This document shows positions 5,533 through 26,530 of a stretch of 64,000 nucleotides of DNA, in pieces. The notes beneath the pieces were generated by a model, which ran no database searches, was not told the origin of the DNA, and saw only the letters and a list, made by a program, of their open reading frames with translations. Position numbers and translations under genes: made by a program. This stretch comes from Runella slithyformis DSM 19594. GTDB taxonomy: Bacteria > Bacteroidota > Bacteroidia > Cytophagales > Spirosomataceae. The stretch covers positions 1,115,501 through 1,179,500 of the forward strand of contig NC_015703.1 in the NCBI RefSeq assembly GCF_000218895.1, written 5' to 3'. Within the stretch, counting starts at the first letter, position 1. Every line of letters begins with the position of its first letter.

Positions 5533-6423
5533 ATGGCTTCATTAAAGGAAGTTCGCAATAGAATCACGTCGGTCAACTCGACGCAACAAATCACGAAGGC
5601 CATGAAAATGGTATCGGCTGCCAAGCTTCGCCGGGCGCAGGATGCCATTCTCCAGATGCGCCCTTACGCCAAGAAGTTGAGTGAAATGCTCGCGACCGTA
5701 TCGGCCGGCACCGAAACCGCCGCCGAAAGCCCGTACAAGCAGGTGCGTCCGGTCGAAAAGGTGTTGATCGTCATCGTTACCTCCGACCGTGGACTTTGCG
5801 GGGCTTTCAATACCAACGTCGTCAAAGCGGGCATGGCCCTCATTCAGGAAAAATACGCTGCACAGGCCGCCAAAGGCAACGTAGAAATATTTGCGTTGGG
5901 CAAAAAAGGCGGTGAAGCCTGCCAACGCCGAGGCTTTAAAGTCAATGCATCGTTCATGGATGTGTATAGCCGTTTAAGCTTCGGCGTGGTGAAAGAAGCG
6001 GCCGAGAGCATCATGGCTGACTTTGAAGCGGGTAAATACGACGCCGTTGAAGTCATTTTCAATGAGTTCAAAAACGTAGCGACTCAGATCATCCGCACGG
6101 ATCAGCTTTTGCCGATTCCCGACGCAAAAGATGAGTTGAAAAAAGCCACAACCTCTAACGTTAACTATATTTTTGAGCCGTCGGAAGAGCAGATCGTGAC
6201 CGATCTGATTCCTAAAACGCTTAAGATCCAGTTGTACCGCGCGGTACTCGAATCCAACGCCTCAGAGCACGGCGCACGGATGACCGCGATGGACAAAGCC
6301 ACCGACAACGCCCAGGAACTCATCAAAGCCCTGCGCTTAGAATACAACCGCTCGCGCCAAGCCGCCATCACCAAGGAGATCCTGGAGATCGTCGGTGGAG
6401 CCGAAGCGCTTTCGAAAGGGTAA
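5533..6423 (+). CDS. atpG: F1Fo ATP synthase subunit gamma
   Basis: The 296-residue protein is the central rotor stalk of F1. The conserved N-terminal helix MASLKEVRNRITSVNSTQQITKAMKMV and the C-terminal helix ending NRSRQAAITKEILEIVGGAEAL are both present. LIVIVTSDRGLCGAFN (about 79-94) is the family signature. It follows the methyltransferase gene at about 115 bp and is terminated by a strong hairpin at 6448-6478. A degenerate copy of its last codons is found 2.2 kb downstream at 8552-8626, evidence of a duplication whose left boundary lies inside this gene's 3' end. Confidence 0.97.
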   Translation: MASLKEVRNRITSVNSTQQITKAMKMVSAAKLRRAQDAILQMRPYAKKLSEMLATVSAGTETAAESPYKQVRPVEKVLIVIVTSDRGLCGAFNTNVVKAGMALIQEKYAAQAAKGNVEIFALGKKGGEACQRRGFKVNASFMDVYSRLSFGVVKEAAESIMADFEAGKYDAVEVIFNEFKNVATQIIRTDQLLPIPDAKDELKKATTSNVNYIFEPSEEQIVTDLIPKTLKIQLYRAVLESNASEHGARMTAMDKATDNAQELIKALRLEYNRSRQAAITKEILEIVGGAEALSKG

Positions 6424-14687: not shown

Positions 14688-17654
14688 TTAAGGTCGCAGG
14701 GCTTCCCATAAGATCTCGATCGGGTGTTTGGCTTTGCGTCCCGTTCCGTCTTTGATCTGATGACGGCAACTGGTTCCCGGCGCGGCAATAATCACCGATT
14801 CGGGCTGTTGTCGCACGGTGGGAAAAAGCACCAATTCGCCCACTTGCATGGATAATTCATAGTGTTCTTTTTCGTACCCGAACGACCCCGCCATACCGCA
14901 ACAACCCGAGGGAATCAACTGCACCGTATAATTTTCGGGCAGCGACAGCATCTTTTTGCTCGGCGTCAATGACGATAAGGCTTTCTGGTGGCAATGCCCG
15001 TGCAATTTAATGGTTTTTTCAGTATCCGTAAACTGCTGACGCTGAACTCGTTTCGCGTCGATTTCGCGCGCAATAAATTCTTCAATCTGCAGGGCATTTT
15101 GGGCGAGTTGTTGGGCCGCATCCCGAAGGGCTTCGGGCACCAGGTCGAGGTATTCGTCGCGGAAGGTCAAAATGGCGGAAGGCTCAATGCCGATCAACGG
15201 AGTACCGGCTGAAATAAGGTCTTTCAGCAGGGTTACGTTCTGAACGGCGATGTTCTTTGCTTCTTTGACCAAGCCTTTGGAAAGATACGTCCGGCCGCTT
15301 TCGACATGCTTGGGAATGATGACCTCATAGCCCAGTTTTTCCAGCAATAAGATCGCTTTTTGGCCGATCTCCACGTCGTTGTAGTTCGTAAACTCATCGC
15401 AGAATAAGTAGACTCTTGACGTTGGAGATTGGACGTTAGACGTTGGGCGGCGGTTTTCCGCCCATTTTTTCAGCGTCGTATCTGACAGCATCGGCATGGT
15501 CCGGTCGGGATGGAACCCAACGACCCGGTTGGCCACCCGGCGGAGCAATTCCGTCCCGAAAACGGCATTGTACGCCCAAGGCACGAAGCTCGCCAAACGC
15601 ATCTGTTGGGAGAAATTGGCAATCAAACGGGACCGAAACGGCACTCCGTTGGTATCGTAATAGCTTTGCAAAAACTCCGCCTTCATTTTGGAAATATCCA
15701 CGCTCGACGGACACTCCGATTTACAGCCCTTGCACGACAGACACAGGTCCAGAATCTCCTTGGTCTCTTCGGCCGTTGCATCAACCGACGAAGATTCGGT
15801 ATAAAAATGCCGCAGCATATTGGCCCGTGCGCGCGTCGTGTCGCGCTCGCGGCGCGTGGCCATATAACTCGGGCACATGGTTCCGCCCGTAATGTGTGTT
15901 TTGCGACAATCTCCCGAACCGCTGCACTTTTCGGCCAACCGCAACAGACTCTCCTGTTTGGAAAAATCAAAAACGGTTTGGAGTGGAGACGCTTTTTGGT
16001 CGGGTTGGTAGCGCAGAAACTCATTCATCGGCGGCGTATCCACGATCTTTCCCCGGTTGAAGATGCCTTTCGGGTCAAATATATTTTTTACTTCCCGAAA
16101 CAGCGCGTACACTTCCTCGCCCATCATATAGGGGATAAATTCACCGCGCAGGCGGCCGTCGCCGTGCTCGCCGGAAAGCGAACCGTTGTATTTTTTGAGC
16201 AATACGGCCGTATCGGCCAAAATGGCCCGAAATTTCGCTTTTCCTTCCGATGTTTTCAGGTTGACCATCGGCTCCACGTGCAGCTCGCCCGCACCCGCGT
16301 GGGCATAATATGACGCATGAACTTCGTGCTTTTTGAGCACTTCGCCCAAGTCTTCAATATAATTCGGCAGATCTTCCACGGCCACGGCGCAGTCTTCGAT
16401 GAGGTTGACGGGCTGTACATCTCCGGGCAGGTTACGTATCAGGCCCAATCCCGCCTTGCGCACATCCCAGGCTTTTTTGGATTCGTCGCCAAACAGCAGC
16501 GGATACGCGTAGCCCAATCCGTTGAGCGTTAACTCACTCACCAAGGCCATCGCCATTGCTTCCACTTCCGGACGCGTGGCGGCCCCGAATTCCACCATAA
16601 GCAATGCCGCCGGATCGCCTTCGATAAAAAAGCGATTGTATTGGTATTCATGGTGCCCTTTGGTAAAATCCATGATATACTTATCGACCAACTCCGACGC
16701 CAACGGGTTGTATTTCATGGCAATCCCATTAGCCAACAGCGACTCGTGCAGCGAATGACAATGAATGCACAGCAATCCAAGCTCTGCCGGCGGCAACGGC
16801 AGCAGGTTGAGTTTTGCTTCGGTAATGAAACAAAGCGTTCCTTCTGAGCCGGCAATGAGTTTACACATATTAAAAGCCCCCGTTCCCCCAAAGGGGGCAG
16901 TAGCTAACAAACTATCTAAGGCGTAGCCCGAATTACGACGGGTAACGGTTTTCTTGGGAAAATTCTTTCTGATTTTGGCTTGATTTTCAGGGTCAGAAAG
17001 AATCTCAAAGGTTTTAGCATAAATAGCCCCCTCAAGTCCCCCAATGGGGGAAAGCAGGGTTCCCCCATTGAGGCGGTCCGATGATTCGGATAGGGGGCTA
17101 AACGTCGCCTCGCTCCCATCGCTCAACAGGGCTTTTACCTCCGTGAGATGGTCGCGGGTAGCGCCCCAGGAAATGGAATGCAGTCCGCAGGAGTTATTGC
17201 CGATCATTCCGCCGATCATTGCACGGTTAGCCGTAGACGTCTCGGGCCCGAACATCCATCCGTACGGTTTCAAAACTACGTTGAGGTCATCCCGAATCAC
17301 GCCCGGCTGCACGCGCACCCAACCTTCGACGGCATTGATCTCCAAAATTTTATCAAAATATTTTGAGATGTCCACCACGATGCCGTTGCCGACCACCTGC
17401 CCGGCCAGGGAGGTACCGGCAGCACGCGCAATGAGCGTCGTTTCGTGTTCGGTTGCAAATAGGATAAGCGAACGAATATCGTTGACCGTTTTGGGTAAAG
17501 CCACCGCGAGCGGCATTTCCTGATAAACGGAGGCATCTGTCGAGTAGGCACGCCGAACGGCCTGATGGGTAACTGAGTTGTCAAAAAAGAGTTCTCCCTC
17601 AAACGTAAGGGCTAATTGGTCGAAAGGGAGTTGAATAGACGCAACGTAAAACAT
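14688..17654 (-). CDS. FAD-linked oxidase / Fe-S oxidoreductase fusion (D-2-hydroxyacid or YdiJ-type)
   Basis: The start at 17654 (MFYVASIQLPFDQLAL) is preferred over the upstream frame, which has no homology-like sequence. The 988-residue protein has an FAD-binding-4 domain (TLIARAAGTSLAGQ and MIGNNSCGLHS), an FAD-oxidase C-terminal domain (SGEHGDGRLRGEF), a 4Fe-4S region (CSGSGDCRKTH, then CLSCKGCKSECPSSVD) and two CCG cysteine-rich modules (GHCHQKALS; SGCCGMAGSFGYEKEHY). This is the layout of GlcD/YdiJ-type quinone-linked dehydrogenases for D-lactate or D-2-hydroxyglutarate. Three short repeat elements are inserted in frame at 15412-15447, 16874-16900 and 17025-17099 without breaking it. 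Confidence 0.9.
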   Translation of the reverse strand: MFYVASIQLPFDQLALTFEGELFFDNSVTHQAVRRAYSTDASVYQEMPLAVALPKTVNDIRSLILFATEHETTLIARAAGTSLAGQVVGNGIVVDISKYFDKILEINAVEGWVRVQPGVIRDDLNVVLKPYGWMFGPETSTANRAMIGGMIGNNSCGLHSISWGATRDHLTEVKALLSDGSEATFSPLSESSDRLNGGTLLSPIGGLEGAIYAKTFEILSDPENQAKIRKNFPKKTVTRRNSGYALDSLLATAPFGGTGAFNMCKLIAGSEGTLCFITEAKLNLLPLPPAELGLLCIHCHSLHESLLANGIAMKYNPLASELVDKYIMDFTKGHHEYQYNRFFIEGDPAALLMVEFGAATRPEVEAMAMALVSELTLNGLGYAYPLLFGDESKKAWDVRKAGLGLIRNLPGDVQPVNLIEDCAVAVEDLPNYIEDLGEVLKKHEVHASYYAHAGAGELHVEPMVNLKTSEGKAKFRAILADTAVLLKKYNGSLSGEHGDGRLRGEFIPYMMGEEVYALFREVKNIFDPKGIFNRGKIVDTPPMNEFLRYQPDQKASPLQTVFDFSKQESLLRLAEKCSGSGDCRKTHITGGTMCPSYMATRRERDTTRARANMLRHFYTESSSVDATAEETKEILDLCLSCKGCKSECPSSVDISKMKAEFLQSYYDTNGVPFRSRLIANFSQQMRLASFVPWAYNAVFGTELLRRVANRVVGFHPDRTMPMLSDTTLKKWAENRRPTSNVQSPTSRVYLFCDEFTNYNDVEIGQKAILLLEKLGYEVIIPKHVESGRTYLSKGLVKEAKNIAVQNVTLLKDLISAGTPLIGIEPSAILTFRDEYLDLVPEALRDAAQQLAQNALQIEEFIAREIDAKRVQRQQFTDTEKTIKLHGHCHQKALSSLTPSKKMLSLPENYTVQLIPSGCCGMAGSFGYEKEHYELSMQVGELVLFPTVRQQPESVIIAAPGTSCRHQIKDGTGRKAKHPIEILWEALRP
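15412..15447. repeat. Interspersed repeat inside the oxidase gene (coding)
   Basis: The plus strand shows repeated gttggagattggac and gttagacgttgg units. They encode the low-complexity stretch RRPTSNVQSPTSRV on the minus strand. The frame is preserved. Confidence 0.6.
16874..16900. repeat. G/C-run hairpin repeat inside the oxidase gene (coding)
   Basis: agcccccgttcccccaaagg is followed by gggcag, forming a ccccc/ggggg hairpin. It encodes ATAPFGGTGAF in the gene. Similar elements occur at 17025-17099 and 62708-62785. Confidence 0.6.
17025..17099. repeat. 75-bp inverted-repeat element inserted in frame (coding)
   Basis: The 75-bp unit starts agccccct and ends agggggct, inverted ends, with an internal cccccaatggggg hairpin. 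Seventy-five bases is a multiple of three, and it encodes SPLSESSDRLNGGTLLSPI and then GGLEG without a stop. It looks like a miniature element domesticated within the FAD-binding domain. Confidence 0.65.
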
Positions 17655-24785: not shown

Positions 24786-24918
24786 GAAGGACGAATAATT
24801 CGAATGACGAGTGACGAATGTTCTTTAAATGACGAATTTAGAACGACGAGTGACGAATAAAACCTCTTATTCTCAACACTTTTTCATTTTACATTTCACG
24901 GTTTATCATTTTGCGGTT
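24786..24918. repeat. 'gacgaat' and 'ttttacatttc' interspersed repeats
   Basis: Several gacgaat/gacgagtgacgaa units lie between 24786 and 24860. They are followed by tttacatttcacggtttatc and ttgcggttttt. The same two repeat types recur at 26320-26530 on the other side of the sorA-like gene. Confidence 0.55.
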
Positions 24919-24919
24919 T

Positions 24920-26152
24920 TTAAACGGCTTTGACAGCGATGCGATGACAGGCGTTGTTGAGGTATCCTCCGGGGTTCCAGGCGGGAATCACCATCGGCTG
25001 CATTATGCCGTTGGCATCCATGGCGCGCGCCCACACTTCATAATAGCCCTTTTTGGGAAGCTGGATCTGCGCCGACCAATGTTGCCACGCCAAACGGTTT
25101 TTGGGGGCCTGCACGTTGGCTTTTTGCCAAGTGGCTCCGTAATCAATGGAAACCTGCACTTCTTTAATCCCAAGGTCGCCCGCCCATGCGTGGCCGCGCA
25201 GCGAAAGGGTTTTGCCCAAATCGAGCATAGCGCCTGATTTGGGCGACGTGATCAGCGATTTGACGGGCATGGATTCAATGATGCGGAAGTTTTCGGGCGT
25301 CTCGGCCAGCTTTTCTCCCGGCGGAACCGGCAGACGTGGCACGCGGTAACTGTGCCCGTCCATTTTCGCGCCGTCGTGTTCTTTGTTGCGAATCGCAATG
25401 GTATGCAGCCACTTGCCCGACACCGAAGCGGGCCAGCCGCCGATGACCAACCGCAACGGAAAGCCGTGCATCAGCGGCAGGTCCTGTCCGTTGACCGCCC
25501 AGGCCACGAGGGTTTCGTCTTCCAGGGCTTTTTTGATGGGCACGCCGCGAGAGATCACCACTTTGCTCGGGTCGCGACTGGGGTGCAGGTCTTTGCCGTA
25601 GTATCCGATGTAGACCGCATCGTCTTTCAGGCCCACGTCGTTGAGAATGTCTTTCAGGCGCACACCCGTCCATTCTGCGCAGCTGACCGCGCCCTGATCC
25701 CACTGATTGCCGGAGGTTTGGGGCACAAATCCGGAGCGCCCGTTGCCGCCGCATTCGAGCACCAACTGATAGGTGTAGGTCTTGAACTTGGTTTTCAGTT
25801 CGCTCAGGCTATAGGTTTTCGGGGCTTTGACCGACTCGCCTTTGATGGTGAGGGTCCATGCCTTCGGGTCAATTTTTTCTTCAGGTACGAGACCATTGTT
25901 ACGAATGAACATTCGCTCAATGGGCGTCACGGCATCGTCCAGCAAATGGGGCGGCGTTTCGACGTTCCAGGGCTTATCACTCAACACGATCATATCGGGA
26001 TGCTTGCCCGCCAATCCATCCTCCAAAGCCAGCGGAACGTGGTGTTTGGGCATATTTTCGGCAAAAACGATCTCCGTTCCGACGATTCCCGCCAACGTGG
26101 TCAAGGCACTTTTCTTTAAAAAACCGCGACGGTTGTGAATCCTTTCGTTCAT
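24920..26152 (-). CDS. Molybdopterin-dependent sulfite oxidoreductase (SorA-like)
   Basis: The start at 26152 (MNERIHNRRGFLKKSAL) gives 410 residues with a Tat signal (NRRGFLKK), as expected for a folded Mo-enzyme. LVLECGGNGRSGF (about 131-143) contains the Cys that ligates molybdenum in the sulfite oxidase family. VISRGVPIKKALEDETLVAWA and HGFPLRLVIGGWPASVSGKWL are family segments that precede the dimerisation domain (about 290-405). It would oxidise sulfite to sulfate in the periplasm, passing electrons to the adjacent cytochrome. Other substrates, such as those of YedY-type enzymes, are possible. Confidence 0.87.
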   Translation of the reverse strand: MNERIHNRRGFLKKSALTTLAGIVGTEIVFAENMPKHHVPLALEDGLAGKHPDMIVLSDKPWNVETPPHLLDDAVTPIERMFIRNNGLVPEEKIDPKAWTLTIKGESVKAPKTYSLSELKTKFKTYTYQLVLECGGNGRSGFVPQTSGNQWDQGAVSCAEWTGVRLKDILNDVGLKDDAVYIGYYGKDLHPSRDPSKVVISRGVPIKKALEDETLVAWAVNGQDLPLMHGFPLRLVIGGWPASVSGKWLHTIAIRNKEHDGAKMDGHSYRVPRLPVPPGEKLAETPENFRIIESMPVKSLITSPKSGAMLDLGKTLSLRGHAWAGDLGIKEVQVSIDYGATWQKANVQAPKNRLAWQHWSAQIQLPKKGYYEVWARAMDANGIMQPMVIPAWNPGGYLNNACHRIAVKAV

Positions 26153-26319
26153 TTTCTGTTCAATTTTATAATCTATGGGATTACCGGATGATTTCATTTT
26201 TCAAAGATGCTACAAAAAAATGTATAATTGAAACGTTCTTTTGCCGAGATTTTGGGATGGAAGCCTGAAAGCCGTTATTCCTCCCTATTGGGCTAATGAC
26301 AGAAGGCAAAAATTGAAGG

Positions 26320-26530
26320 ATTCTGCGTATGTTTGGGCGAAGGATTCGAATGACGAATGATTCGAATGACGAAGTACGAATGCCGGGTTTGGGAATGACG
26401 ATTACGGACTTTCTCATTTTTTACTTTTCAGTTTTAGAATTCTTAACTTTTACGGTTTACTATTTCTCGCGGGGCCATCCATGCGGTTTTACATTTTTCG
26501 GTTTTACATTTCTCGGTTTTATCCTTATTT
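26320..26530. repeat. Second cluster of 'gacgaat' and 'ttttacatttc' repeats
   Basis: gaaggattcgaatgacgaat and related words lie at 26338-26400, then repeated ggttttacatttttcgg and ggttttacatttctcgg at 26480-26520. The latter overlap the apparent start of the aminotransferase gene and code for its odd Phe/Tyr/Arg-rich beginning. They mirror the repeats at 24786-24918. Confidence 0.55.

Follow-up and report, generated by a model that had tools for sequence, protein, structure and literature searches.

Short interspersed repeats of several hairpin-prone families probably undergo fast turnover at tolerant positions in Runella slithyformis DSM 19594 and its relatives, displacing loops in frame and then decaying, and two elements in a dehydrogenase gene of the window (the whole stretch of 64,000 nucleotides that was analysed) are best read as two copies from two such families. 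We observed the repetition itself, in-frame positions in many genes, orthologous sites that lack the repeat, native loops that have been replaced, copies in decay and slots occupied by different repeats in sister species, and we infer that the repeats arrive as moving DNA copies, that selection filters them and that the host proteins stay functional.

According to this model the families would be a GC-run palindrome (AGCCCCC-n-CCCC-n-GGGGG), often present as an inverted pair of ~54–75 bp, and 7-nt repeats. Turnover would take place at sites tolerating foreign sequence, such as intergenic spacers, surface loops, interdomain linkers and signal peptides, and within genes only frame-preserving copies at tolerant sites would survive. 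Such a copy would mostly displace the native loop and be translated, with SPLTPNGG...PPLGVGG as the favoured peptide, and would then decay through point mutation to an ordinary loop.

Repeats in the dehydrogenase gene

The gene (14688–17654, minus strand) is an ORF of 988 aa for a FAD-linked/4Fe-4S dehydrogenase with Pfam and NCBIfam matches to FAD_binding_4, FAD-oxidase_C, Fer4 and a GlpC-like CCG part, its top NCBIfam score being YdiJ-like and below the cut-off of that family. It carries three elements A, B and C, which the original prediction had described as interspersed repeats domesticated in frame. All three are in frame and B and C are interspersed repeats, but A as an insertion is not supported, and instead of the single family that had been proposed the three elements represent at least two distinct ones.

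Element B (17025–17099, minus strand; aa 186–210, translated as SPLSESSDRLNGGTLLSPIGGLEGA) is a 75-bp imperfect palindrome of the GC-run family that folds with -46.3 kcal/mol (z -4.7; 0 of 200 shuffles equally good). A second copy with 83% identity over 40 nt is located at C4:2286668 of the own genome (G000; 6,919,729 bases, 6 contigs), where it lies in the TMD-NBD linker of an unrelated C39-ABC transporter gene in the identical reading frame. The left half of B is common to the orthologue L098 from genome G006 and missing from L094–L097.

Element C (15418–15449, minus strand; aa 736–746), a gttggag-type repeat in the linker that precedes the GlpC-like part, encodes PTSNVQSPTS (aa 737–746) and is a 7-nt periodic tandem repeat like other heptamer SSRs, with 16 of 21 lag-7 matches (0 of 2000 shuffles equally good). 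The own-genome paralogue L213 also has gttggag heptads in loop 3, the same loop as C, and none were seen by eye in loop 3 of its genus orthologues (L214–L223). In this linker the repeat type differs between species. Across the loops of the gene the relatives show other repeats: the third loop of L098 has a palindromic stretch of ~78 nt, L105 has one and the same CCCCTCTCATTGAGGAGAGGGG element in both loop 1 and loop 2 together with a GC-run unit in its loop 3, and L099–L102 have GGGCAAAGG-type repeats.

Element A (16875–16898, minus strand; APFGGTGA, aa 253–260) is an exact match to the genome-wide GC-run unit with an unexceptional hairpin (z -0.8). APFGGT is found in the orthologues L098–L100 and L102 and in paralogues (L213–L217), VPFGGT in L101 and the related AFEGTKPFN in L112, a member of another family. 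Because relatives and paralogues have equivalent residues, which is the finding that the original prediction had named as speaking against insertion, A is not a simple insertion and we dropped it as an independent one. While its DNA matches the repeat, the residues are ancestral-looking, and A may stem from an old copy, from convergence or from overwriting.

The predicted extra loops held in part. In an AlphaFold model built with 27 homologues (mean pLDDT 81.5) the confidence falls below 50 at residues 191–203 within B and 739–741 within C, and A falls in a coil region with averages of 82–89 per 10-residue block. The lengths of these loops differ across 29 aligned relatives; compared to the same-genus L094 the loop of B is ~10 aa and that of C ~5 aa longer, but with other genera as the reference (e.g. 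L107) the excess shrinks to ~1 aa for either loop as read from the alignment, and therefore both loops are mostly substituted and not added.

GC-run units and heptads in the own genome

A genome search for each element, as had been suggested, returned the second copy of B, exact unit matches for A, even if the residues of A look native, and arrays related to C. Using the pattern GCCCCCN1-5CCCCN2-5GGGG and its reversed form as control, we obtained 20 rows in G000 (control 0) clustering to 12 places, 8 of them inside long ORFs; the locus L148 misses the coding criterion and is not part of these 8, and B and the copies in an SDR gene and in L145 deviate from the strict pattern and were not counted in the 12. 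A stricter TCCCCC..GGGGGA core gave few matches and was dropped as a definition of the family. Arrays of two C-related heptads gave 64 rows against 4 in the control. A CutC-like motif in L144, YPNPTSN in L179 and other 2-mismatch heptads within ORFs were set aside by eye as chance matches.

In-frame copies, strict or near, occur in genes for an SDR, Mfd and C39-ABC transporters as well as in signal peptides, and unrelated proteins have stretches of ~20 residues in common. The SDR copy comprises 13 aa compared to 4 in the nearest orthologue and is missing from 7 of 7 genus orthologues. The Mfd copy is shared with L242 from G006, and graded decay is visible among the Mfd orthologues, with decayed forms of equal or near-equal length in L239, L240, L243 and L245 and a different loop in L246 and L247. 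In the C39-ABC transporters the GC-run copies are located in the C39 loop or in the TMD-NBD linker, and L145, which keeps an empty C39 site (HFVVVYRIKKNQIYVADPAKG), serves as an internal control among the paralogues. Of five copies that were folded, four reached z -4.7 to -9.3, the perfect or near-perfect 60-nt hairpins being at -7.5 to -9.3 and A being the exception.

Some further loci were noted during these searches. The C39-ABC transporter gene in L148 is broken at ~1930 (C4:3490380) by an in-frame TAG at a codon that reads Trp in the paralogue L141, with a GC-run pair just downstream. In the SusD-like lipoproteins L150 (~2000; C4:4636010) and L153 (~2000; C4:5188618) the unit encodes the lipobox LLPLWGLGGC, and among the orthologues of L150 PLWGLGGC is retained in L234 and L235 and absent from L250–L252. 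At C4:4914938–4915086 of G000 (L155–L160) heptads of the GACGTTGGA type form a long array in noncoding DNA.

Distribution in relatives

At least one match to the GC-run unit was found in 64 of 121 genomes, and the reversed-pattern control stayed near 0 in most of them, with G066 (42 rows, control 19) as the clear exception. From the 154 rows of G010, a genome of the same genus, we sampled 49 clustered copies among the matches listed. More than half (29/49) are inside ORFs (minimum ORF length 150 aa, with 20 aa or more to either side of the copy), compared to an ORF background of 82% by the same criterion, while the 20 outside face only ~18% of the positions in those loci, which corresponds to a ~3 times higher density per base; coding DNA is thus underrepresented per base but still holds most copies. 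The unit is present on both strands and in several frames with a bias towards one frame for each orientation (16/19 sense and 12/20 antisense units), part of which results from stop codons closing one frame in some copies. In a sample of 30 loci from the wider family an ORF covers the unit in 10, and the repeat peptide is clear in about five (L258, L260, L278, L284 and perhaps L279).

There is good support for the proposal that the repeats can enter genes without inactivating them, as in-frame copies are present in many unrelated genes and in clear cases are absent from orthologues. Moreover ValS, LeuS, MiaB, SelD and MetH each gave a single match in G010, namely the copy with the repeat, which argues that this copy is the working one.

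Loop replacement

We compared G010 with G001, the flanks being ~87–95% identical and the segment limits read by eye, for the 13 of 16 searched fragments for which an orthologue locus had been retrieved (all but L322, L334 and L335). In G001 the G010 copy is absent in 9 cases, decayed in 1 and kept in 3, and all 12 copies with a fetched counterpart in G000 are absent there (both by eye). In genes that we take, from their sequences and not from a family search, to encode the following proteins, the change from G001 to G010 is 6 to 17 aa in ValS (+11), 11 to 19 in a FabG-like gene (+8), 16 to 13 in MiaB (-3), 10 to 11 in a UxaA-like gene (+1), 28 to 42 in MetH (+14), 6 to 20 in LeuS (+14), 24 to 24 in a KdsB-like gene (0), 21 to 21 in an IMPase-like gene (0) and 18 to 20 in SelD (+2). 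The simple addition of loops that the original prediction had implied does not describe these data, as the native loop is replaced in most compared cases; usually the repeat displaces it rather than merely adding residues, with a net change of -3 to +14 aa. The exact swap of 21 for 21 aa in the IMPase-like gene is unlike plain insertion and counts against our best explanation, as do the higher density per base outside ORFs, the own copy in the broken gene of L148 and the lack of a mobiliser at the Y1 loci considered below. MITEs have terminal inverted repeats with a target-site duplication; inverted pairs are present here, but neither such a duplication nor a clean integration boundary could be defined in the G010/G001 comparison, where replacement hides the boundaries, and this too counts against our explanation.

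Slot sharing and possible overwriting

A strict lag-7 scan over the retrieved loci gave 1–2 runs per set, and heptad turnover was therefore tested slot by slot. Among 17 aligned G001 slots, read by eye, 2 keep the repeat, 1 has a decayed form, 7 hold a repeat of another type and 7 no repeat. In 7 of the 10 tested among them (3 intergenic, 4 coding) the G001 counterpart is 7-nt periodic with at most 12 of 2000 mononucleotide shuffles equally good, and in one 6-kb stretch 5 of 6 GC-run slots of G010, spacers and genes alike, hold 7-nt repeats in G001. Unrelated repeats thus occupy the same place in two closely related species, and the simplest account of this is fast turnover at permissive places.

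A more novel account is an overwriting process. In its broader form, which is conceivable but which we do not favour, fixed slots such as permissive loops and intergenic hairpins are rewritten in each lineage by the active repeat family, the surface loops of core enzymes being swapped from time to time for peptides encoded by repeats, through a mechanism distinct from both plain insertion and RAYT transposition. Slightly less probable still is that old hairpin slots are overwritten species by species through a conversion-like or template-switching process with no new insertion at all. The 6-kb stretch, the length-neutral replacements in the IMPase-like and KdsB-like genes and the gttggag repeats in the same loop of both own-genome paralogues (the dehydrogenase and L213) would fit such a process, but GC-run and 7-nt repeats have no common sequence for homologous conversion, the 7 of 17 slots without a repeat in G001 (by eye) speak against it, and in ValS and LeuS the repeat seems to have been gained where none stood before.

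Comparison with known systems

The Rickettsia palindromic elements (RPE) form ten sequence families of about 150 bp and show a reading-frame preference, which the frame bias in G010 resembles; they were reportedly studied by Ogata et al. in 2000 and 2002, as related in a review. The repeats described here differ from them in length (54–75 bp compared to about 150 bp), in phylum, in residing in large genomes and apparently in sequence, as well as in replacing native loops and in unrelated repeats occupying the same slots of sister species. Both systems have in common the self-complementary hairpin (in the GC-run unit, that of A being unexceptional) and copies in frame in many unrelated genes, as described for RPE in a review (PMC10969869).

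Among intragenic REPs of the GTAG and CGTC classes, some lie wholly in ORFs and code for 20–30 residues (PMC3733652). The GC-run repeats are similar in being short palindromes, often inverted dimers, with some copies within ORFs, but ORFs hold more than half of the copies sampled in G010 while REPs are largely found between genes (PMC3733652). They also differ in having neither a GTAG/CGTC tag (G010 flanks, by eye) nor an association with RAYT (own-genome Y1 loci). Repeats of heptamers, for example TAACTGA, have been reported in some Bacteroidota, chiefly in intergenic regions (PMC4679880), whereas here other heptamers are involved, some of which lie in frame within coding loops whose slots are taken by GC-run palindromes in relatives. 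Our literature search, with subscription papers mostly outside it, returned papers on RPE and on intragenic REPs, but the titles and abstract openings covered mention no in-frame palindromes for Runella, Cytophagales or Bacteroidota. The GC-run system works like RPE or intragenic REPs but is a different family, and loop replacement and slot-swapping look new. It would add a further natural example, on a large scale and distant from Rickettsia, of essential proteins receiving new peptide segments from repeats. Filled and empty sites in close relatives make the question of how selfish DNA becomes protein testable, with gain, replacement and decay side by side, and the repeats show which loops are permissive in proteins such as aminoacyl-tRNA synthetases, SDRs and C39 transporters.

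It is improbable that we are dealing with REPINs whose movement depends on a Y1 transposase of the RAYT type. Inverted pairs of short palindromes do have a REPIN-like organisation, G000 has 8 Y1_Tnp loci above the Pfam cut-off and intragenic REPs are already on record (PMC3733652), but the GC-run hairpin is present at 0 of these 8 loci, the two loci checked for inverted repeats are both flanked by other palindromes, and the flanks of 20 noncoding G010 copies show no constant GTAG/CGTC tag by eye. We therefore dropped a RAYT association in the own genome, and the search of these 8 loci revealed no mobiliser for the GC-run unit. The two flanked loci, L205 (1958–2528; GCTTCGGAGAAGC) and L206 (1426–2093; CCTCCTGCTTTAGC), are likely classical REP/RAYT sets.

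It is highly improbable that no mobile repeat exists and that freely evolving Pro/Gly/Ser-rich loops and codon bias mimic GC-run hairpins and heptads: this holds at least partly for A, whose residues occur with other codons in relatives and paralogues, and some 2-mismatch heptads in ORFs look native (YPNPTSN in L179), but the unit is also intergenic, on both strands and in several frames, its copy number ranges from 0 to 242 rows among relatives with a control mostly near 0 (G066 42 vs 19), unrelated proteins share stretches of ~20 residues, and perfect or near-perfect 60-nt hairpins have z -7.5 to -9.3.

Other repeats in the window

Noncoding repeats of the ACGAATG and TTTACATTT types at 24786–24904 and 26348–26519 of the window flank an ORF at 24920–26197. 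Furthermore, the window contains duplicated stretches of 80–91% identity at 6363–6540/8566–8745 and 8392–8517/11343–11468, one of which has a 43-bp hairpin (CAAACGGCCCGCTTC/GAAGCGGGCCGTTTG).
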